A stretch of 58,303 nt of DNA from an uncultured bacterium (GTDB taxonomy: Bacteria > Cyanobacteriota > Vampirovibrionia > Gastranaerophilales > Gastranaerophilaceae): positions 1-58,303 of the forward strand of contig CASGCE010000028.1 in NCBI GenBank assembly GCA_949299935.1, read 5' to 3'. The notes under the pieces are model-generated. The model saw only the letters and a program-made list of their open reading frames with translations, ran no database searches and was not told where the DNA came from. The translations under genes and the position numbers were made by a program. Every line of letters begins with the position of its first letter. Within the stretch, counting starts at the first letter, position 1. Below, piece by piece: positions 6,361 to 57,620 of this stretch.

Positions 6361-6717
6361 CTATAATTTTTCCCACAGTTCTTTCAACATGTATTCAAGT
6401 CGTTTTTTATCATGGAGATACCACCATCCGAGTATTGTTTCGAAGGCTGTTGCTTGACGATATTTTACTTGATTTGCTCTTCTGGCAATCGGAACTGTTA
6501 AATTTCTTCCTCGTCTTACTATTTCTTGTTCCTCGTCGGTTAATTTTTCTTCCAATGCTATCAGCAGCTTGGCTTGATAAGAAAAATTTACTTTATCGGT
6601 TGTTATTTTATGCAGCTGTTTAGAATTTTGTGTCATTAAAATTGTATGTTCTCTAACGAACAGTTCCCATATAGCATCACCCAAATATGCATAGTGTCTC
6701 AGATTCATTTCTGCCAT
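6361..6717 (-). CDS. mrnC: Mini-ribonuclease III
   Basis: 118 residues, a single RNase III catalytic domain without a dsRNA-binding domain, the usual size of Mini-III. The motif HYAYLGDAIWELFVRE carries the conserved acidic residue of helix 1, and ATAFETILGWWYL near residue 92 carries the second acidic site. In this family the enzyme acts as a dimer and trims the ends of 23S rRNA precursors. A TATACT box abuts the first ATG; the second Met (residue 4) is an alternative start. It stands alone, downstream of nothing on its strand. Confidence 0.9.
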   Translation of the reverse strand: MAEMNLRHYAYLGDAIWELFVREHTILMTQNSKQLHKITTDKVNFSYQAKLLIALEEKLTDEEQEIVRRGRNLTVPIARRANQVKYRQATAFETILGWWYLHDKKRLEYMLKELWEKL

Positions 6718-6794
6718 AGTATAATTTTACTATAAAAAATTTACAAGTTGTTTTATAAGATTTATTGTGAGATAATAGTTGCACAGGAGACATA

Positions 6795-7449: not shown

Positions 7450-7497
7450 ATGCAAATAATTTCAGGAAAGGTTAACGGGGGGGGGCGACTCCTCTAA
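7450..7497 (+). other. Poly-G leader ORF of prepilin 1 (candidate frameshift switch)
   Basis: A strong SD (AAGGAGGGG) precedes ATG 7450. This opens a 15-codon ORF with nine consecutive G at 7477-7485; the ORF ends GGGRLL-stop at 7495-7497. The prepilin frame is one base back and has a TAA (7473-7475) directly before the G tract, so it cannot be entered from upstream without a shift. A -1 slip on the Gs, or one extra G, joins MQIISGKVNGGG to ATPLSRKDKGFAPIDV and on into the prepilin. The same layout occurs at 25831 and 39399. Confidence 0.75.
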
Positions 7498-7515: not shown

Positions 7516-7544
7516 TTGCCCCAATTGACGTTATGTGCTATAAT
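7516..7544 (+). promoter_or_regulatory. Promoter for leaderless prepilin 1
   Basis: TTGCCC (7516-7521), a 17-bp spacer, then extended -10 TGC-TATAAT (7539-7544), six bases before ATG 7551. Transcription would start at or next to the A of the ATG. The same DNA also encodes part of the long N-terminus if the frameshifted form is made. Confidence 0.7.
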
Positions 7545-7550
7545 TCAAAT

Positions 7551-8339
7551 ATGAAGAATTATAGTTCAAGAAAAGGTTTTACGTTAGCAGAGGTATTGAT
7601 AACGCTTGCAATAATCGGTATAGTAGCGGCGATAACAATACCGACAATATCAAAGAATATTCAGCAAGCTGTACTAAAGAACCAATTTAAGAAATTTTAT
7701 AGTACGTTTTCTCAGGCAGTATATGGTATACAGACAAAAGCAGGTCGACCTATAAAATGTCATTATTGGAGTAGCAATCCTTATTCAGGTAAATGTACTG
7801 CTACTTGTCCTGTAAAAAATGAATATGGTACGTGTATAGGTGGGAATGTATGTGCTGAAACAGGGTTATCTATTCCTTCAGATTATGTTGGTCCTATGAG
7901 TGAGTGTCGAAAATTTCACGAAGAATTATTTATTAATACGTTAAAAACGGTAAAAATATGTAAAGACCATGCATATGAACAGGGTTGTTTACCGAAGGAT
8001 TTTAGAGGAGCAGATGTCATTAATTCTGAAAAAAATCCAGATAATAACTATGATCCGAACGGTAATTTTTCAGATAATAAAATAAAAAACAATTATCCTG
8101 TATTTGTTTTAGCAGATGGGACTTATGTTATAGGCTTTGCTGTATATTTCCCCCAAATGCCACTATATACAGTCGATATAAATGGCCATAAAGGCCCTAA
8201 CAAATGGGGATATGATATATTTTCTTTTAGGCTTAAAGGGGACTTAAATAATGGTATTAAGGTATTTAGCAGTACTGCATATGCCACGGAAAAGGGCGGT
8301 AAAACATTCGAGCAGATGTATAATGAATGTTTTAAATAG
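7551..8339 (+). CDS. Prepilin-like protein 1 (type IV pilin/pseudopilin N-terminus)
   Basis: The N-terminus SSRKG-FTLAEV is a prepilin peptidase site: Gly at -1, Phe at +1, Glu at +5, then a hydrophobic helix LITLAIIGIVAAITIPT. The C-terminal domain is Cys-rich and ends with the family pattern VLADGTYV...DINGHKGPNKWGYDIF, shared with prepilin 2. It is presumably a minor pilin or pseudopilin in the inner membrane or a pilus/type II secretion fibre. ATG 7551 is chosen because of the -10 box six bases upstream; ATG 7533 (MCYNSNM) lies inside the promoter. An alternative product starts at 7450 and is joined by a -1 frameshift in the G tract. No Shine-Dalgarno precedes 7551. Confidence 0.85.
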   Translation: MKNYSSRKGFTLAEVLITLAIIGIVAAITIPTISKNIQQAVLKNQFKKFYSTFSQAVYGIQTKAGRPIKCHYWSSNPYSGKCTATCPVKNEYGTCIGGNVCAETGLSIPSDYVGPMSECRKFHEELFINTLKTVKICKDHAYEQGCLPKDFRGADVINSEKNPDNNYDPNGNFSDNKIKNNYPVFVLADGTYVIGFAVYFPQMPLYTVDINGHKGPNKWGYDIFSFRLKGDLNNGIKVFSSTAYATEKGGKTFEQMYNECFK

Positions 8340-10131: not shown

Positions 10132-11320
10132 ACATATTCTGGAATTTTATACAAGCAGCAAGAGCATGTTGTACGGTATCCATTTTGACTATAGAAGCTG
10201 TTTTAGGTACTCCCAATTCTCTCCAGTCTGCAGAATTTGGAAAACCACCCTTTAATGGACCTTTTTGAATTTGTGACAGTCTTAAAAATTTTATGCCTGT
10301 ATCTATAGTTTTCATAATACGCATTTTCAAAATATCATCATCTACGCAATTATAAGTTGCTATAAGACCTTCCACAATACAAGCAATGTTTAATGGTTTA
10401 ATATTATCCACCAAGGCTCCGTAATAGCGTTCTTCTTTGTTTACAATTTGTTTTGGGATAACCTGTTCGACCATTTTTATTAAATGTAATATTAAAAGAT
10501 TTTTTTCTTCATCAGTCAATCCGTTATCGGGTGTTTTGAAAAGTTTTTCTGTTGCAAGCATGGAATTATAATCAAATTGGACTTCCTTTTGATTTTTGCG
10601 CATTTTTGCAAGAAATAATAATCCTTTTTTAGCCCCCTCAAGCCATTTTCTTTTAGCATTGAACTCGTACAGATATAAAAGTCCCAAAGGCGCATCACCT
10701 GTGTAACTAAGGTTGTAACTGTCACTTATACCGCCGTTTTCGATATCGTAAAAATTGTAGAATTGACCGTTTTTCATTTGCATAAAAAGCAGAAACTGTC
10801 CCATACCTTCAAAAATTTCATCAGGAATTATTTTTTCCGGCCTTAAATCCGAAAATGCCACAAGAGCCATGGCTGTTGCTGTGAGCTTCGCTTGTTCACA
10901 TTTTATATTTTCTTCATTTGGTTTCGAAATAACTGCATATCTGCCAAAACCTATTGATTTGACATATTCATTAACAAAATATTTTGCTGATTCCCGCCTT
11001 TTCTGTGCTAGACCTTGTAAATTTAATTCCCTTTCGCAAAGATATAATGAATACAGCATTCTTGCATGGTTGGTTGTGTTATAAGCATTTTTGTTTATGT
11101 TGTATTTATCTTTTAAATTTCTTATATATATAAATCGACCGTTGTCCAGCATGTTTTCACTAACATAATAAAGTGCATAAACTATTGAATTATGGATTTT
11201 GGTCAAATTTTTTTGCGAACCTGTAAATTTATTAGCATCCTTTGAAATTATCCATGCAAAAATTACTGCACCTATAACAACAGTTCCAAGATAAATATAT
11301 TGCAAAGAAATACCTTCCAT
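10118..11320 (-). CDS. Membrane-anchored protein with predicted (alpha/alpha) barrel
   Basis: About 400 residues. One N-terminal membrane helix (YLGTVVIGAVIFAWII) is followed by a long helical domain with repeated helix-hairpin patterns (ALYYVSENML, MLYSLYLCEREL, ALVAFSDL, LLYLYEF, HALAACIKF) and conserved-looking GGF, GDAPLG and YYGAL turns. This is typical of alpha/alpha toroid enzymes such as epimerases or glycan lyases. The specific function is unknown. The start at 11320 is set by the -10 box six bases upstream; the longer MVCYNCV start lies inside that promoter. The Mur-ligase-like gene is 15 bp upstream, so the two may act together on a cell-envelope polymer (inference). Confidence 0.65.
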   Translation of the reverse strand: MEGISLQYIYLGTVVIGAVIFAWIISKDANKFTGSQKNLTKIHNSIVYALYYVSENMLDNGRFIYIRNLKDKYNINKNAYNTTNHARMLYSLYLCERELNLQGLAQKRRESAKYFVNEYVKSIGFGRYAVISKPNEENIKCEQAKLTATAMALVAFSDLRPEKIIPDEIFEGMGQFLLFMQMKNGQFYNFYDIENGGISDSYNLSYTGDAPLGLLYLYEFNAKRKWLEGAKKGLLFLAKMRKNQKEVQFDYNSMLATEKLFKTPDNGLTDEEKNLLILHLIKMVEQVIPKQIVNKEERYYGALVDNIKPLNIACIVEGLIATYNCVDDDILKMRIMKTIDTGIKFLRLSQIQKGPLKGGFPNSADWRELGVPKTASIVKMDTVQHALAACIKFQNMFKNE

Positions 11321-11326
11321 AACGCA

Positions 11327-11335
11327 ATTGTAACA
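11327..11335 (-). promoter_or_regulatory. Extended -10 of the barrel-protein gene
   Basis: Minus-strand TGT-TACAAT ends six bases before ATG 11320; no SD is present. It is part of the leaderless series and allows expression independent of the upstream Mur ligase gene. Confidence 0.6.
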
Positions 11336-11356: not shown

Positions 11357-12703
11357 CTAATTACAGTTCTTTAAGTTATCAACAATTTTATGTAAACCGG
11401 TTGCGTGTGAAGATTTTATGAATACATTATCATTATCATTTATAAAATTCTTAAATTTCGGTAAAAGCTTGTTAATATTATCAAAATAGTAACATTCAAA
11501 TTCTTTTTGCAAAATGTCAAACAGTGTTTTCATCTCATTACCGCAAAATATTATTCTTGAAGGTTGGGCACTTCTTATTGTACTAATTAAGGCGAGATGA
11601 TATTCAGTTGCTTTATCCCCACCTTCGGTCATTTCTCCCAGGAAAAGGACTTTATTTTTGTCATAGTTTTTGCCGAAAGCTTCTATTGTAGCGGACATTG
11701 ATAAAGGATTGGCATTAAAAGCTTCATCTACAAGGATAATATTTTTACCTTCACATGTTATATTGGAAGTTTCACCCCGACCTTTTAGACTTTTAAAATT
11801 TTTAAGTTTATCTAATGAAGAACTAAATGGAAGACCTGATATATTTGCAACTGCTATAGCTGCGGCAATGTCATAAAGCAGATATTCAGGCATATAATGT
11901 TGACTGATTTTATATATTTGTGTATTTGTCGCCAGAGAATAATCTTCCGGAATAATTCTTATGTCGACTCCGTCTTGTTTGCCAAAGGTTACTATATTTA
12001 ATTTTTTTTCCAAAGCAGCAGACTCAAAGATTTCAAAACATTGCATATCGCGATTAAGTACAGCGGTTGCACCCGGAAGCATTGTAGCAAATATTTTACT
12101 TTTTGCATGTGCCATACCCTCAACAGTTTGCCCCTCCTTTAAGTGAACCGCGGCAAGGTTTGTTACTACTGCTATGTCGGGGAATGCTGCATACCCGTTA
12201 CCTATAGAAGATTCTATAACCCAGTATTTTTTGTTAATATCAAATGTTGTCATATTCCAGCAAATTGCAATCAAAGTGTTTGCTAAATTTAAATTTGCAT
12301 CCGCACCGTATTCTTCAACAATATCGTAAATCATTTTTGTTGTTGTAGATTTGCCTGCGCTACCGGTAATAGCTATAACTTTTCCGTTATAACATTTCCT
12401 TATGTACTTACCAAGTGAAAAAAGAGCTTTTGTTACGTCATCAATTTCTATAATCGGCAGGTTTAAATCCTCAAAATTTTTATGATTGGTACACATTATT
12501 GCCGCAATTTTATCCAAAAAAGGCATAATATTTTGTCTTACAGCACCTTTTGTTTCACCAGGAGATCTGACTATTACAACATCATGTTCGCCCAAGTCTG
12601 TATGCCATATGCGAAAGCCTGAAGAAGTCCAATTTTCAGGGAAATTGTACAATCTGCAATTTATAAGAGCTTTTTGTATATTTTCTGTGTTCCAAAAATT
12701 CAT
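11357..12703 (-). CDS. Mur-ligase family protein, MurF-like
   Basis: 448 residues. ATP-binding P-loop ITGSAGKSTTTKMI (about residues 115-128), central-domain WVIESS and VVTNLAAVH, and C-terminal domain DEAFNANPLSMSATIEAF followed by FLGEMTEGG. The NANPxSM motif is typical of MurF (UDP-MurNAc-tripeptide:D-Ala-D-Ala ligase). The N-terminal substrate domain is atypical, so this may be a paralogue that joins a different amino acid or peptide to a wall or capsule precursor. Cytosolic. It starts leaderless from a good promoter. The barrel protein follows at 15 bp. Confidence 0.75.
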   Translation of the reverse strand: MNFWNTENIQKALINCRLYNFPENWTSSGFRIWHTDLGEHDVVIVRSPGETKGAVRQNIMPFLDKIAAIMCTNHKNFEDLNLPIIEIDDVTKALFSLGKYIRKCYNGKVIAITGSAGKSTTTKMIYDIVEEYGADANLNLANTLIAICWNMTTFDINKKYWVIESSIGNGYAAFPDIAVVTNLAAVHLKEGQTVEGMAHAKSKIFATMLPGATAVLNRDMQCFEIFESAALEKKLNIVTFGKQDGVDIRIIPEDYSLATNTQIYKISQHYMPEYLLYDIAAAIAVANISGLPFSSSLDKLKNFKSLKGRGETSNITCEGKNIILVDEAFNANPLSMSATIEAFGKNYDKNKVLFLGEMTEGGDKATEYHLALISTIRSAQPSRIIFCGNEMKTLFDILQKEFECYYFDNINKLLPKFKNFINDNDNVFIKSSHATGLHKIVDNLKNCN

Positions 12704-12709
12704 AGAATT

Positions 12710-12738
12710 ATTATACTTTATTCAAAAAAGTTGTGCAA
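12710..12738 (-). promoter_or_regulatory. Promoter of the MurF-like gene
   Basis: On the minus strand: TTGCAC, a 17-bp spacer, TATAAT, six bases, ATG 12703. This is a complete sigma-70-type promoter placed for a leaderless transcript. It begins right at the end of the upstream gene's terminator. Confidence 0.75.
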
Positions 12739-22418: not shown

Positions 22419-22447
22419 TTGTATTTAATTTGTCAATAAGTGATAAT
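22419..22447 (+). promoter_or_regulatory. Promoter of the XRE-type regulator gene
   Basis: TTGTAT, a 17-bp spacer, GATAAT, six bases, ATG 22454: the leaderless layout. Confidence 0.6.
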
Positions 22448-22453
22448 AATTAA

Positions 22454-22663
22454 ATGAATATCAAAGCATTAGGATTGAATATAAAAGCTGAAAGAAACAG
22501 AAAAGATATGTCTCAGGCGGAATTAGCCGAGATGGTTGATTTAAGTACAAATTCAATTACATCAATAGAGAAAGGTAGGCAGATTCCTAATGCAATAAAT
22601 CTTTATAGAATTGCAAAGATTTTGGGTGTTGATATAAATGAATTATTTAAAGGTATCGAATAA
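22454..22663 (+). CDS. Small XRE-family HTH regulator
   Basis: 69 residues, all one HTH_3 domain: LGLNIKAERNRKDMSQAELAEMVDLSTNSITSIEKGRQIP with the SIEKGR recognition-helix end. No sensor domain. It lies 34 bp before dut and is probably co-transcribed with it. The target is unknown; auto-regulation is plausible. Confidence 0.85.
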   Translation: MNIKALGLNIKAERNRKDMSQAELAEMVDLSTNSITSIEKGRQIPNAINLYRIAKILGVDINELFKGIE

Positions 22664-34687: not shown

Positions 34688-34693
34688 TTTTAT

Positions 34694-34701
34694 GCTATAA
34701 T
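34694..34701 (+). promoter_or_regulatory. Extended -10 of the nudix gene
   Basis: TGC-TATAAT ends six bases before ATG 34708. No SD. No good -35, as is common with an extended -10. Confidence 0.6.
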
Positions 34702-34707
34702 TTCATT

Positions 34708-35235
34708 ATGGATTTTGAAGAGAAAACTATAGATTCTGAATATGTCTACAGGGGAAAAGTTATTGATGTTTTGCGTGACAATGTGGAAATTGTTACGGGT
34801 AGAAAATCTGTTCGGGAAGTAGTTGAACACACAGGTGGGGTTGTAATAGTTGCACAAAAAAGTGTTGACACAATTTTGATGGTTAAACAATACAGATATC
34901 CTATAAAAGAAACTGTTCTTGAACTTCCGGCAGGTAAACTTGAAAAAGGTGAAGAACCTTTCCCTGCTGCCAAAAGAGAACTTGAAGAAGAAACCGGTTA
35001 TAGAGCTTTAAAATGGAAAGAATTGGGTTATATCAACACAACTCCCGGATTTTGTAACGAAAAATTGTATTTATATCTGGCTAAAAATCTTGAGTTTGTT
35101 GGCGAACACCCTGACGAGGGTGAAGTTTTACAGTGTTTTGAATACAAAATTGATGAGATTTTTGAAAAAATAAAACTTGGTGAGATTAATGATGCAAAAA
35201 CAATTTGCGGACTTATGAGGGCTTTTAAACTATGA
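34708..35235 (+). CDS. NUDIX hydrolase, ADP-ribose pyrophosphatase type
   Basis: 175 residues. Nudix box GKLEKGEEPFPAAKRELEEETGY (G-x5-E-x7-REL-x-EE-x-G) near residues 73-95, preceded by LELPAG. This arrangement is the ADP-ribose pyrophosphatase/NudF subgroup: ADP-ribose to AMP and ribose 5-phosphate. It probably begins as a leaderless message. It overlaps the HAD gene by four bases. Confidence 0.9.
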   Translation: MDFEEKTIDSEYVYRGKVIDVLRDNVEIVTGRKSVREVVEHTGGVVIVAQKSVDTILMVKQYRYPIKETVLELPAGKLEKGEEPFPAAKRELEEETGYRALKWKELGYINTTPGFCNEKLYLYLAKNLEFVGEHPDEGEVLQCFEYKIDEIFEKIKLGEINDAKTICGLMRAFKL

Positions 35236-37056: not shown

Positions 37057-38409
37057 CATAGCTTTTGTCATAGCGTGTTTGCCCATTTTACCGCCAAAGC
37101 CGCCCATCATTTTTTTCATATCATTCATGCCCTTCATCATCATACGCATTTGTTCAAACTGCTTGATATAAAGATTAATGTTATGCATATCAATGCCGCA
37201 GCCTTTGGAAATCCTTTTTTTACGGCTGGTATTTAATAACGAAGGATTAGCACGCTCTTCGGGCGTCATGCTTTGGATAAATACTTCGATTTTTTTGAAT
37301 TGTTTTTCACCCTCGTGTGAAAGTTTTTCCCTGTCATCTTTGGATATTTTCATCCCCGGAATCATACCTAAAATTTGATCCATTGAGCCCATCATTTTCA
37401 TTTGTTTTTGCATTTTCAAAAAATCATCAAAGGTAAATTCGGCTTTTGCCATTTTTTCTTCGAGCTCTTTGGCTGATTTTTCATCAAAAACCTCTTGCGC
37501 ACGTTCGACAAGTGAAACAATATCACCCATTCCAAGAATTCTTGTAGCCATACGTTCGGGATAAAAATCCTCCAACGCATTTAATTTTTCGCCCGTACCG
37601 GTCAGTTTAATCGGTTTGCCTGTGCAATAAACAACAGACAATGCGGAACCGCCACGGCTGTCACCATCAAGTTTTGTTAAAACAAGACCTGTCAACCCAA
37701 TTTGTGCGTCAAAGTTTTCAGCGACATTTACAGCCTCTTGACCTGTCATAGCATCGATTACGAGCAGTTTTTCATGAGGCGCAAAAATTCTGTCAATAAT
37801 CAATAATTCTGCCATCATATCTGTGTCAATTTGTAAACGACCTGCAGTATCAAGAATTAATACATTGAAGCCTTTTTCTTTAGAATAATCAATGGCGGCT
37901 TGAACTATTTGTTTGACATCTTTTGAATTGTCAATTGAAAAAACTTCAACTCCAATCTCACTGCCTAAAGTTTTAAGTTGCAAAATTGCTGCCGGCCTAT
38001 AAACATCACATGCCACCAAGAGTGGATTTTTGCCTTCTTTTTTAAGTTTTACGGCAAGTTTCGCAGAAGAAGTTGTCTTACCTGATCCCTGCAAACCAAG
38101 CATCATTATCAACGACGGATGACCGTTTAAATCCAAAGGTTTTTGTTCTTTCCCCAAAAGCTCGATTAATTCATCATTAACTATTTTTACCAATTGTTGT
38201 GACGGATTGACGCCTTCAAGAACCTTTTCGCCTTCAGCTTTATCCTTAATCGCTGAAATAAAAGCTTTGACAACTCTTAAATTCACATCAGCTTCTAAAA
38301 GAGCACGCCTAATTTCGCGCAAAGCCTCCTGCATATTATCTTGTGTAAGCTCTGTATTGCGTGTTTTGCTTATAATACTTTGTAATCTGTCACTCAAACT
38401 TTCGAACAT
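37033..38409 (-). CDS. ffh: Signal recognition particle GTPase
   Basis: 458 residues from ATG 38409. N-domain ALREIRRALLEADVNLRVV, G1 GLQGSGKTTSSAKLA, DVYRPAA, G3 DTAGRLQ, G4 TKLDGDSRGG, then a Met-rich M domain ending in MMGGFGGKMGKHAMTKAM, which binds SRP RNA and signal peptides. The start is set by TGT-TATCAT six bases upstream; MCYHEN before it lies inside the promoter. Confidence 0.97.
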   Translation of the reverse strand: MFESLSDRLQSIISKTRNTELTQDNMQEALREIRRALLEADVNLRVVKAFISAIKDKAEGEKVLEGVNPSQQLVKIVNDELIELLGKEQKPLDLNGHPSLIMMLGLQGSGKTTSSAKLAVKLKKEGKNPLLVACDVYRPAAILQLKTLGSEIGVEVFSIDNSKDVKQIVQAAIDYSKEKGFNVLILDTAGRLQIDTDMMAELLIIDRIFAPHEKLLVIDAMTGQEAVNVAENFDAQIGLTGLVLTKLDGDSRGGSALSVVYCTGKPIKLTGTGEKLNALEDFYPERMATRILGMGDIVSLVERAQEVFDEKSAKELEEKMAKAEFTFDDFLKMQKQMKMMGSMDQILGMIPGMKISKDDREKLSHEGEKQFKKIEVFIQSMTPEERANPSLLNTSRKKRISKGCGIDMHNINLYIKQFEQMRMMMKGMNDMKKMMGGFGGKMGKHAMTKAMSMMRKFR

Positions 38410-38415
38410 ATTTTC

Positions 38416-38424
38416 ATGATAACA
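38416..38424 (-). promoter_or_regulatory. Extended -10 of ffh
   Basis: Minus-strand TGT-TATCAT, six bases before ATG 38409; no SD. It directly follows the T run of an upstream hairpin. Confidence 0.55.
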
Positions 38425-39394: not shown

Positions 39395-40330
39395 GTGAAT
39401 GAAGTTGAGCGGAAACAACGGGGGGGGGCGACTCTCCTAAGTAGAAATAGCAAGGGTTTTGCGGATATCTGTCATCCTGAGGCGAAGCCGAAGGATCTGC
39501 GGAGATTCTTCGCCGGCGCTCAGAATGACATTAAAGAACTTAACGACTTTAAAAAGAAAGCCGGTGCTACGCACGTAGACATGCCAGGCAACATTCGTTG
39601 TGCCGCGTTTACCCTCGCCGAGGTGCTTATCACCCTTGCCATCATCGGTATTGTGGCAGCAATGACAATTCCGACGCTTATAACGAATTATCAGAAAAAG
39701 CAGACTGTATCCAAATTAAAACAAACGTATTCAATAATATCTCAAGCGCTAACCATGGCACAGGCAGAACATGGTGATACAACAACGTGGGATGTGGCAG
39801 GTATTTACGGGACACCTACAGATGATGCTAATTTTTCATCAAAAGAAGCATTGGAAACATTTGTTAAAAAATATTTTATTCCATATTTAAATGTTTCAAA
39901 AGATTATGGATATACGTCGGTTTCATCTATTAAATATGATGGTCCAAGACTACCTTTTACAGGTAATTATACTTCCGGAAAAGATTCATTGAAATATTTT
40001 TTGTTGTTATCTAATAATGTTTTTATTTCAATTGTCATAGAAACATCGGGGTGTGCATCTGGTACAAGTGTTGAGGATGGTACGTGTGTTGATAGATATT
40101 TGCATCCTGTTTTCTATGTAGATGTTAATGGTTTTCAAAAGCCTAATACATTGGGAAAAGATATTTTTGTAATGCGTTTTAATTTGAATTCGCGTGTCGT
40201 TGAATTTTATCGTTATGCTTCAACTAGACAGTCGGCACTTTCTAACTGTGCAACCGGTAATTCATATACATGTGGATATTTGATTTTGTTAGACGGCTGG
40301 GAAATTAAAGACGATTATCCTTGGCAGTAA
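39395..40330 (+). CDS. Prepilin-like protein 3 with an unusual long leader
   Basis: Pilin segment CAA-FTLAEVLITLAIIGIVAAMTIPTLI: Glu at +5 is present, but residue -1 is Ala instead of Gly, which may slow cleavage. The C-terminal part ends DVNGFQKPNTLGKDIF. Here the prepilin frame is open upstream to GTG 39395, but the SD (AAGGAGG) is two bases from that GTG and six from the out-of-frame leader ATG 39399, so the shifted route may still be the main one. A 61-bp REP element (39470-39530) is inserted in frame between the poly-G element and the pilin. Codons at 39575-39680 are GC-rich compared with the rest. Confidence 0.7.
   Translation: MNEVERKQRGGATLLSRNSKGFADICHPEAKPKDLRRFFAGAQNDIKELNDFKKKAGATHVDMPGNIRCAAFTLAEVLITLAIIGIVAAMTIPTLITNYQKKQTVSKLKQTYSIISQALTMAQAEHGDTTTWDVAGIYGTPTDDANFSSKEALETFVKKYFIPYLNVSKDYGYTSVSSIKYDGPRLPFTGNYTSGKDSLKYFLLLSNNVFISIVIETSGCASGTSVEDGTCVDRYLHPVFYVDVNGFQKPNTLGKDIFVMRFNLNSRVVEFYRYASTRQSALSNCATGNSYTCGYLILLDGWEIKDDYPWQ
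39399..39440 (+). other. Poly-G leader ORF of prepilin 3 (candidate frameshift switch)
   Basis: SD AAGGAGG, six bases, ATG 39399, 13 codons with nine G at 39420-39428, ending GGGRLS-stop. A -1 shift gives MKLSGNNGGG joined to ATLLSRNSKGFAD. After the G tract, CGACTCTCCTAAGTAGAAAT and then AGCAAGGGTTTTGC match the other copies; homology stops where the REP element begins. Confidence 0.75.
39470..39530. repeat. REP/MITE-like palindromic element inside prepilin 3
   Basis: Ends TGTCATCCTGAG and CTCAGAATGACA are inverted repeats (11 of 12), with a GC-rich interior and a second internal palindrome (GCGAAGCC... to GGCGC). It reads in frame as CHPEAKPKDLRR. This kind of sequence is widespread as an intergenic repeat in bacteria; here it lies inside a coding frame. 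Confidence 0.75.
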
Positions 40331-42388: not shown

Positions 42389-42397
42389 TGGTATTAT
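42389..42397 (+). promoter_or_regulatory. Extended -10 of nrnA
   Basis: TGG-TATTAT six bases before ATG 42404; TTGTAC lies 16 bp upstream. No SD. Confidence 0.55.
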
Positions 42398-42403
42398 TAG
42401 AGA

Positions 42404-43369
42404 ATGGAAGTTGTTCAGTTAAATAATATCATAAAATCTTCTAAAAATATATTAATAATATCACACATAAATCCCGATGGAGATACGTTGGGTTCTATGT
42501 GCGGTATGTACTCTTTAATCAAAACTAATTTTAAAAAGAAATGTGACTTGCTTGTTGTTTCTAAAATTTCTGAGAAATATAAATTTATCCCCAATATAGA
42601 TTTGGTAAAACATATTGATGAATTTGATAAATCTCGTGTATACGATTTGGTAATAAATGTTGATGTCGCTGCAATGGATAGAATTTGTGACGGAAAAATT
42701 CTTTTTGAAAAAGCAAAAAAAACTGTCAATATTGATCACCACAAGACAAATATAAGTTATGCAGATTTAAATTTTGTCGAAGGTGATGCAAGTTCGACAT
42801 CAGAGGTTATTTATTCTATTGCTAAAAAATCGGGTTGGAAGATAAATTTCGATGTAGCAGTTTGTTTATACACCGGAATATTAACTGATACAGGTTCATT
42901 CAGGTTTAATAATACGACTGCCAGGTGTTTAGAATATGCTGCAGATATGATTAGACTGGGCATAGTGCCTAATGATATGTTTATAAAGTGCTATGAAACG
43001 TATACAAAAGATATGTCGCTTTGTCAATTTTATTGTTTGAATAAATCTGTTTTTCTGGATGATGATAAAATTGTGTACACAACGGTGTACAAAAAGGATA
43101 TGGAAAAATTTAATACTGATGAGGAGTTTGCAGAAGGTTTGGTAGAAAGACTTCGTGCAATTACATCTACAAGAGTTGCTTTTGTGGCAAAGGAAATGAA
43201 AAATGGCGGGTGCAAAATTTCTATGAGAAGCAAAGAAATAGATGTTGCGGAAATTTGCGGGTTGTTTGGCGGTGGCGGACATAAACATGCTGCAGGTTGT
43301 ACAATGAAATATAATGTTGAAGAATCAATAAAAAAAATTTTGTTCGAGATTAGGAAACATGAGTTGTGA
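42404..43369 (+). CDS. nrnA: DHH-family nanoRNase/pAp phosphatase
   Basis: 321 residues. Metal motifs ISHINPDGDTLGS, INVDVAAMDR, NIDHHKTN and a later Asp (GILTDTGSFRF); DHHA1 substrate motif GGGHKHAAG near the C-terminus. It degrades short oligoribonucleotides and 3',5'-pAp. Its stop overlaps the GTG start of the next gene (GTGA). Confidence 0.93.
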   Translation: MEVVQLNNIIKSSKNILIISHINPDGDTLGSMCGMYSLIKTNFKKKCDLLVVSKISEKYKFIPNIDLVKHIDEFDKSRVYDLVINVDVAAMDRICDGKILFEKAKKTVNIDHHKTNISYADLNFVEGDASSTSEVIYSIAKKSGWKINFDVAVCLYTGILTDTGSFRFNNTTARCLEYAADMIRLGIVPNDMFIKCYETYTKDMSLCQFYCLNKSVFLDDDKIVYTTVYKKDMEKFNTDEEFAEGLVERLRAITSTRVAFVAKEMKNGGCKISMRSKEIDVAEICGLFGGGGHKHAAGCTMKYNVEESIKKILFEIRKHEL

Positions 43370-49855: not shown

Positions 49856-50245
49856 TTAAACCGAAATTAAAAATTTCTTATACGGTAGAATTGTTTGACA
49901 AAGCCTTTTGGGGATGTAATCAACATTATATTTTTCCGCTATTTTGTCGATGTTAGGTGAAGCTGAAATAATAACTATTTTTGTATTTTTATATTCCGGA
50001 TAAAATTTGACCTGTTTTATTAACCATTCTCCTGCATATATAGGTGAAAAATCGGATTCCATCTGCATGTCCGTAAAAATTATATCAAACGGTTCATCAA
50101 TATTTGCGGACAAAAGTCTGTCACCCTCCTTTGCAGAACTTGCTGACAAGATTTTTACATTTTCATCTTTTAAAATATATTTAATATTACAAATATGATG
50201 TCTTATCCAGTTTGGAGAATCGTCTGTTACTAAAATTTTTTTCAT
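49856..50245 (-). CDS. Single-domain response regulator (CheY-like)
   Basis: 129 residues from ATG 50245. Acidic pair VTDDSPNW, phospho-Asp in IIFTDMQMES, Ser in IIISASPN in place of Thr, Lys in YIPKRL. No output domain. The start is fixed by TGT-TATAAT six bases upstream; the MCYNKC extension is the promoter itself. Partner kinase unknown. Confidence 0.85.
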   Translation of the reverse strand: MKKILVTDDSPNWIRHHICNIKYILKDENVKILSASSAKEGDRLLSANIDEPFDIIFTDMQMESDFSPIYAGEWLIKQVKFYPEYKNTKIVIISASPNIDKIAEKYNVDYIPKRLCQTILPYKKFLISV

Positions 50246-50251
50246 ACATTT

Positions 50252-50260
50252 ATTATAACA
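50252..50260 (-). promoter_or_regulatory. Extended -10 of the CheY-like gene
   Basis: Minus-strand TGT-TATAAT six bases before ATG 50245, directly following the terminator hairpin of the Hsp20-like gene. Confidence 0.65.
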
Positions 50261-50282
50261 CAAAGGGCGGCTTTGCCGCCCT
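50258..50282 (-). terminator. Terminator of the Hsp20-like gene
   Basis: AAGGGCGGC/GCCGCCCTT hairpin (50263-50282), then TTTGTGTTAT on the minus strand. The weak T tract runs into the next promoter. Confidence 0.7.
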
Positions 50283-52406: not shown

Positions 52407-53107
52407 TTTACCCTCGCTTGTTCTTCTACACTCATTACAGGTAATAGAACTTCAAATGTCGTTTCACCTTCACCTGAAATTACGGAAATTCGTCCGTTCA
52501 TTTTTTCAACAAGATTTTTGGTAATGTATAATCCTAAACCGCTACCTTGTACTTTTCGTGTCAAAGGGTTATCTATTCTTGAAAATTTTGTGAAAATTTT
52601 GTTGTAATTCTCCGGTAAAATACCTATTCCATGATCGCTTACTTTTATTGAAACATAATCTCCCGCAGGTTCGGTAGAAACTTTTACCGTTGTATTTTCA
52701 TTTGAATATTTTGCTGCGTTTTCTATTAAATTTGTCATAATTTGTTGAAATTTATCCTTATCAACAATTACCGTTGAGGTTTTTTCACTAAAATCAAATT
52801 CAAACTTATGCGTCGGATATGCTGATTTGACAATATCTATTACAGGTTCTATCAAATATTTTAAATTTGCTTCTTTTAAAACAAGAATATCTTTCCCTGG
52901 CTGTAATTTGGTTACGGAAAGCATGTTTTCAACCAATCCTATAAGCCTGTTTGATTGGTCCTCTATAATTTTTAAGAATTTCTTTTTGCTATCATCATCA
53001 AGTTTATCCCAAGATTCCAACATGGTTTGTGCAAATCCTCGGATTGATGTCAATGGTGTCCTGAGTTCATGACTTACGGTTGATATAAAATCTTCATAAT
53101 TATCCAT
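52394..53107 (-). CDS. Soluble histidine kinase core
   Basis: 237 residues. HisKA with TVSHELRTPLTSIRGFAQTM right at the N-terminus; HATPase N box NLIENAAKY, G1 VSDHGIGI, G2 GSGLGLYITKNLVEKMNG. No sensor or TM part; it starts 10 residues before the His, so input must come from another protein. The start is set by TGT-TATAAT six bases upstream. Confidence 0.9.
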   Translation of the reverse strand: MDNYEDFISTVSHELRTPLTSIRGFAQTMLESWDKLDDDSKKKFLKIIEDQSNRLIGLVENMLSVTKLQPGKDILVLKEANLKYLIEPVIDIVKSAYPTHKFEFDFSEKTSTVIVDKDKFQQIMTNLIENAAKYSNENTTVKVSTEPAGDYVSIKVSDHGIGILPENYNKIFTKFSRIDNPLTRKVQGSGLGLYITKNLVEKMNGRISVISGEGETTFEVLLPVMSVEEQARVKCNL

Positions 53108-53113
53108 ATTTTG

Positions 53114-53122
53114 ATTATAACA
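53114..53122 (-). promoter_or_regulatory. Extended -10 of the soluble kinase gene
   Basis: Minus-strand TGT-TATAAT six bases before ATG 53107; no SD. Confidence 0.65.
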
Positions 53123-57265: not shown

Positions 57266-57585
57266 TGTAAGTTTCTCCATTCTTGAAGTATACTTTTTGC
57301 TTTTAGGATATCTTTACTTTGTGTTGATTTATCGCCACCATTGATAAGTAAAACTATTATATTATCTATTTCAGTATAATAAATCCGATATCCGGATCCA
57401 AACTTAAATCTTAGTTCAGATATTTCATTATCTATTTTCTTATGGTCTCCAAAATTATTTTCTAATAATCTTGTTAACCTGCTTTGTATCCTTATTTTTG
57501 TATTTTTATCAAGCGAATTCATCCATTCAATAAATGGTGCTTTATCATTTGCTAATTGTGCAATTTTTACAATTCGCATGTTCAT
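57262..57585 (-). CDS. higB: HigB-family toxin
   Basis: 107 residues from ATG 57585. RelE/ParE-fold Gp49-like type: FIEWMNSLDKNTKIRIQSRLTRL, the turn DHKKIDNEISELRFKFGSGYRIYY with the usual E-L-R-F-x-x-G-x-Y-R-I core, and LLINGGDKSTQSKDI. These toxins cut ribosome-bound mRNA. Toxin-first order is normal for higBA. The 57612 start is rejected because the promoter lies inside it. Confidence 0.9.
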   Translation of the reverse strand: MNMRIVKIAQLANDKAPFIEWMNSLDKNTKIRIQSRLTRLLENNFGDHKKIDNEISELRFKFGSGYRIYYTEIDNIIVLLINGGDKSTQSKDILKAKSILQEWRNLQ

Positions 57586-57591
57586 ATTAAT

Positions 57592-57620
57592 AGTGTAAAC
57601 TATAGCAGACATTTTGTCAA
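57592..57620 (-). promoter_or_regulatory. Promoter of higBA
   Basis: Minus-strand TTGACA (consensus), 17-bp spacer, TACACT, six bases, ATG 57585: a leaderless message for the toxin. Confidence 0.75.

Follow-up and report, generated by a model that had tools for sequence, protein, structure and literature searches.

About one in eight ATG-start genes in the genome described here are preceded by a −10 hexamer that ends exactly six bases before the start codon, a spacing called N6 below. The genome belongs to the Gastranaerophilales, gut bacteria that are non-photosynthetic relatives of cyanobacteria. Pattern counts across this genome and in its relatives show the N6 boxes to be promoter-like elements held in a fixed register with the start codon. 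It is very probable that they are ordinary σ70-type promoters phased so that transcription would start on the A of the ATG, giving leaderless mRNAs. We infer from the sequence the start nucleotide (to within one base), the absence of a leader and an initiation that is free of Shine-Dalgarno (SD) pairing.

The proposed process can be described in some detail. RNA polymerase would bind a promoter consisting of a TATAAT box that often carries a TG extension, or is combined with a TTGACA-like −35 hexamer at 17 bp, and would synthesize an mRNA without a 5' leader. The ribosome would then start on the 5'-terminal AUG without SD pairing. About one eighth of the ATG-start genes would be built in this way, less often those close behind a gene on the same strand, and most of the others would use an SD sequence.

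The window, by which we mean the whole stretch of 58,303 nucleotides analysed, is contig C28 of a 1.68-Mb Gastranaerophilales genome that is 97% complete. For one protein encoded in the window, the nearest relatives with a name are from Candidatus Gastranaerophilales MAGs. Two layers of data were used, namely pattern counts over the whole genome and a 458-kb sample, about a quarter of the genome, which includes the window. Genes in the sample were called by a simple caller of our own, which uses hexamer coding scores alone and has no motif model. The 385 ATG starts obtained from these motif-free calls are the set in which boxes were counted.

A promoter-like box at a single distance from the start codon

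The genome contains 170 matches to TATAAT-N6-ATG, compared with a mean of 59.9 per spacing at spacings 1-5 and 7-11 (p = 2e-27; this and the other p-values assume independent sites, and paralogues are not fully independent). Twenty of the 170 matches are copies of one pilin-family 15-mer, leaving 150 without them. The reversed pattern, used as a control, is found 44 times, and ATG is the most enriched of the 64 triplets that follow TATAAT-N6 (z 6.1). At the called ATG starts of the sample, a perfect TATAAT is present at N6 in 26 cases and in 0-5 cases at each of the remaining spacings between 0 and 30. Scored boxes are found at N6 before 54 of the 385 starts, against a mean of 7.5 and a maximum of 18 at the other spacings, and none of the 54 is a copy of the pilin 15-mer. 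The excess at N6 corresponds to roughly 12-13% of the ATG genes. The genome-wide spacing count that had been proposed as a check by the first-pass annotation gives an excess, and in this genome the excess is sharp at six. A bump at N11 was rejected as a second class, being an echo of TATGnTATAAT. The degenerate pattern TANNNT-N6-ATG, counted without gene calls, gave no peak; it is too degenerate at this GC content.

The ten sites that the first-pass annotation had picked out in the window are collected in Table 1. At all ten a −10-like box does end exactly six bases before the ATG, and an SD sequence is present at none. The extended TGn, said to be present in most cases, lies directly before the box at seven sites, and the −35 elements reported for 7551, 12703, 22454 and 57585 are TTG-type hexamers, each spaced by 17 bp. 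The sites that lack a TGn (12703, 22454 and 57585) all have such a hexamer, and 7551 has both elements. A match of four out of six bases to TTGACA at a spacer of 15-19 bp occurs at 26% of random positions, so that the genome sample, rather than these four sites, has to carry the −35 claim. The names given to two core genes are correct, 38409 being Ffh with its SRP54 domains and 42404 an NrnA-type DHH/DHHA1 protein. The name higB at 57585 fits a Gp49/HigB-type match and an HI1420-type antitoxin gene downstream, but the match is just under the Pfam cut-off. The start chosen by the motif-free caller agrees with the cited one at eight of the ten sites. The exceptions are 7551 and 57585, where the caller moved the start 6 or 9 codons upstream to an in-frame ATG that would fall within the promoter or before it.

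Table 1. Predicted promoter-start sites and the G tract, with positions in the window
Feature	Position	Strand	Sequence elements and remarks
NUDIX hydrolase gene 34708-35235	34693..34710	+	TGC TATAAT TTCATT ATG: extended −10, six-base gap, start
Pilin-like gene 7551-8339	7539..7553	+	TATAAT TCAAAT ATG; −35 TTGCCC at 17 bp; TGC extension
Gene 11320-10118, no Pfam match	11318..11332	-	TACAAT TGCGTT ATG
Mur ligase gene 12703-11357	12701..12715	-	TATAAT AATTCT ATG; −35 TTGCAC at 17 bp
69-aa ORF 22454-22663	22442..22456	+	GATAAT AATTAA ATG; TTGTAT at 17 bp; weakest of the ten
ffh 38409-37033	38407..38421	-	TATCAT GAAAAT ATG; TGT extension
NrnA-type DHH gene 42404-43369	42392..42406	+	TATTAT TAGAGA ATG; TGG extension
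Response-regulator-like gene 50245-49856	50243..50257	-	TATAAT AAATGT ATG; TGT extension
Histidine-kinase gene 53107-52394	53105..53119	-	TATAAT CAAAAT ATG; TGT extension
Gp49/HigB-like gene 57585-57262	57583..57597	-	TACACT ATTAAT ATG; −35 TTGACA at 17 bp
118-aa ORF 6717-6361, extra N6 site absent from the earlier list	6715..6729	-	TAAAAT TATACT ATG
Conserved G9 tract in the last part of a short SD-led leader ORF	7450-7497; further copies 25858, 39420		Upstream of pilin-like genes

At window positions 50250-50280 a GC-rich hairpin (GGGCGGCAAAGCCGCCC) adjoins the TGTTATAAT box (50252-50260) on its upstream side, so that a terminator-like structure and a predicted promoter are packed together.

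The −35 hexamer, the TG and the base at −1 are features that were not used in picking the 54 N6-box sites. The TTGACA-like hexamer peaks at a spacer of 17 bp, where it is found at 15 of the 54 sites compared with about 3 at other spacers. TG is present at −15/−14 in 21 of the 54 sites and at −17/−16 in 20. The −35 hexamer is commoner in sites without TGn (17/33) than in those with it (5/21; p = 0.05). The base at −1 is T in 45 of the 54 N6-box genes, against 106 of 220 SD genes (p = 3e-6). A T at this position is the usual pyrimidine before the purine of a start site, and a −10 box that occupies −12 to −7 is expected to place the start of RNA synthesis on the A of the ATG. N6 boxes are rarer at genes that begin no more than 25 bp after a co-directional gene (7/115, compared with 47/270 of the others; p = 0.004). 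An SD-like word is found at one of the 54 N6-box starts, and most of the remaining ATG genes in the sample are SD-led, in agreement with the earlier remark that other genes use SD sequences. The anti-SD sequence, CACCTCCT, is normal, as read from the 16S gene of a same-genus genome; the exact 16S 3'-end pattern had no match in the genome studied, and 16S was not found in its assembly. The mutual exclusion of SD and box was set aside as an independent proof, because both motifs would fill the same bases.

Two explanations that do not involve promoters have to be considered. The sample has a GC content of 35% and contains 1021 TATAAT words in 458 kb on both strands, and an AT-rich genome could yield many such words before ATG codons by chance. 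The excess, however, is limited to a single spacing, and a photosynthetic genome that is equally AT-rich (G107, 31% GC) does not have it, so that chance carries practically no weight as an explanation. The AT-rich box could instead be a translation signal, such as a site for ribosomal protein S1; Nakagawa et al. (2017, PMC5397173) note that S1 sites may underlie an AT-rich bias in front of start codons. Such a site would need neither a defined hexamer, TATAAT, at one fixed position nor a TG or a −35 hexamer at 17 bp, and the rarity of the box in closely spaced genes also suits a promoter. We regard the S1 explanation as highly improbable.

The first base of the transcript and the start codon

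All 30 ffh orthologues of the family align from the same first codon, and the N-termini of the nrnA-type proteins begin at the same ATG in most of 30 orthologues. Among the 30 family orthologues of the nrnA type, TANNNT is present at N6 in 18 and TGn precedes the box in 17; several positions of the gap vary while the register of the box stays. The N6 box is also kept in three of three relatives of the Mur ligase gene (12703) and in three of three relatives of the gene at 11320. The base at −1 of the nrnA-type genes is mostly A, and their RNA may therefore start at −1 or at +1. In G003, a genome of genus g2 (loci L113-L119), 9 of 137 starts have the box at N6 and 11 have it at N7. Transcription in this genus may begin one base before the ATG, leaving one-base leaders.

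In ffh, 11 of the 30 orthologues (L083-L112) have an N6 box without an SD sequence, 15 have an SD sequence without an N6 box, and four have neither. The predicted mode of expression is exchanged between N6 box and SD among closely related genera, while the start codon is unchanged.

It is conceivable that the boxes are real promoters, but that transcription begins at a distance of one to five bases from the ATG and leaves a very short leader. The N7 boxes of G003, the A at −1 in the nrnA-type genes, and N9 boxes in two ffh orthologues, one of which comes from the same-genus genome G031, are all consistent with this possibility. Nevertheless, the genome studied peaks solely at N6 (54 boxes, compared with 0-8 at N4, N5, N7 and N8), and a T at −1 followed by an A at +1 suits a start on the A. 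Very short leaders thus seem unlikely. It would also be possible for the true start codons to lie downstream, with the cited ATGs marking transcription starts alone, as the gene starts used here are predictions. The conserved N-termini of Ffh and of the nrnA-type proteins begin at these ATGs, however, and SD-led starts occur within the next 20 codons in 3 of the 54 N6-box genes, a rarity that makes a later true start unlikely. Downstream starts are therefore very improbable. Transcription from the A of the ATG, and hence a leaderless mRNA, is the reading that we prefer.

Pilin-like genes and the G tract

The site at 7551 had been counted among the leaderless ones. The N6 box is present, but the gene is a member of a paralogous pilin family and its ATG lies inside a longer open frame. 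The site belongs to a set of 20 copies of TATAATTCAAATATG in the genome, each of them preceding a pilin-like gene with the N-terminal sequence KGFTLAEVLIT or a close variant of it. A conserved block, CGGGGGGGGGCGACTCCTCTAAGTAG, is found about 65 bp upstream of the 7551-type site and has about 40 copies in the genome with no more than two mismatches. A search of 117 genomes of the family with a stricter pattern found this block limited to the same genus.

The SD-led leader ORF upstream of the pilin-like genes has about 12-16 residues, enters the G tract and stops just after it (M...GGGRLL-stop). The tract has about 40 copies in the genome studied, and 49 classifiable ones in this and same-genus genomes. 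Each of the 49 has a prepilin motif that could be recognised, and in each the pilin frame runs without a stop for the 9-192 codons that separate tract and pilin, while stops interrupt both other frames. No Met occurs along this stretch in 16 of the copies. Of 48 re-examined copies, 42 have a G9 tract; an SD-led leader was found in 41 of these 42, in every case out of the pilin frame. In 43 of the 48, the pilin frame has a stop codon no more than 60 bp before the tract. Three copies have G10; for two of these an SD-led ATG that shares the pilin frame was found. The tracts are mostly G9, with a few G8, G10 and G11, and assembled homopolymer lengths may hide mixtures. In the third copy of the window, at 39395-39402, a GTG (39395) and an overlapping ATG (39399) share one preceding SD sequence, and at G9 the GTG alone has the frame of the downstream pilin ORF.

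The natural reading of this arrangement is that pilin expression would depend on slippage, be it phase variation, transcriptional slippage or ribosomal frameshift. The long form of the pilin would need a change from G9 to G10 in the DNA, slippage of the RNA polymerase, or a −1 shift of the ribosome. In the 7551 subclass the TTGAC-like hexamer, the 17-bp distance, TATAAT, N6 and ATG survive, and the spacer differs between subclasses. As the parts of the promoter survive despite the differing spacer, the leaderless promoter at 7551 appears to be a second, internal start. We lean slightly towards the combination of the two, in which the long pilin would be made through slippage at the tract and the internal leaderless promoter of one subclass would provide a second, slippage-independent start for a shorter pilin.

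Distribution in the phylum and comparison with known systems

The same-genus genome G031 has an N6 box at 15 of 103 starts. The N6 excess is 2.2-2.8-fold in the genus itself and 1.4-2.0-fold in the other tested members of the family. In the sister families f2 and f3 it is 1.2-1.7-fold, and singly non-significant in three of six genomes; the signal in G160 is weak. The further families f6, f10 and f14 have an excess of 1.6-5.2-fold. Five genomes of these three families, which lie outside the class (G010, G013, G032, G038 and G044), have TATAAT-N6-ATG at 2.5-5.2-fold over the neighbouring spacings and no PF00124, the samples of 21 ATG genes from G013 and G044 being too small for a spacing spectrum. 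The N6 ratio of the photosynthetic genomes is 0.9-1.3, with the highest value in G151 (p = 0.05).

None of the tested genomes with a clear N6 enrichment has PF00124, the photosystem reaction-centre family, which was found in five genomes without a clear N6 excess. G035, whose assembly is 87% complete, has neither PF00124 nor the excess. The N6 signal is seen among the non-photosynthetic members of the phylum, and the tested photosynthetic ones essentially lack it, a contrast that is a lead and not a proof because the signals of the sister families are weak.

If these readings are correct, the gut Gastranaerophilales, and probably further non-photosynthetic members of the cyanobacterial phylum, join the bacteria with leaderless expression. 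The leaderless layout bears on the annotation of start codons in many uncultured genomes. Orthologues such as those of ffh, with either an SD sequence or a fused promoter at the same start codon, represent a natural experiment on the switching of modes. The contrast with photosynthetic members makes a loss in the oxygenic lineage, as opposed to a gain outside it, testable.

The leaderless layout is known from other bacteria (Actinobacteria, Deinococcus), and it is the lineage that appears to be new. In the literature searched there is no earlier report of leaderless expression in Gastranaerophilales or Melainabacteria, and an earlier mention elsewhere is possible. Leaderless transcription has been predicted in 21.6% of bacterial species (the StartLink paper, PMC9581028), so that this kind of expression is common. 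In mycobacteria the start codon can be at the 5' end of the transcript, with either a −10 hexamer or an SD sequence upstream, and a 5'-terminal ATG or GTG suffices for translation (Shell et al. 2015, PMC4633059). The mycobacterial case was proven by start-site mapping and ribosome profiling, whereas here we infer it from sequence. In Deinococcus-Thermus a −10 motif lies 6-7 bp before the ORF and an SD sequence cannot replace it; reporter assays in Deinococcus showed that the box has promoter activity (Zhong et al. 2025, PMC12340547). The Deinococcus motif is TANNNT in a high-GC genome and serves about one third of the genes, whereas the boxes described here are TATAAT-rich and, judged by sequence, serve about 13% of the ATG genes.

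The closest description is that of the TA-led genes, which lack an SD sequence and have their −10 hexamer some 12 bp ahead of the start codon, and which in low-GC genomes show TAtAAT with a TG peak (Zheng et al. 2011, PMC3160421). The 207 positive genomes of that study did not include Cyanobacteria or their non-photosynthetic relatives. Like the TA-led genes, the N6 sites have TAtAAT with TG and no SD sequence at their starts, the latter being largely forced by geometry. The position of the box, at N6, falls within the 6-7 bp of the TA-led layout, its frequency there exceeds the controls for spacing and composition, and its genes are mainly the first or single ones of transcription units, as the 7/115 against 47/270 contrast indicates. 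The boxes also have the form of σ70 (extended −10) promoters, TATAAT with TGn, with a −35 hexamer about 17 bp upstream, or with both.
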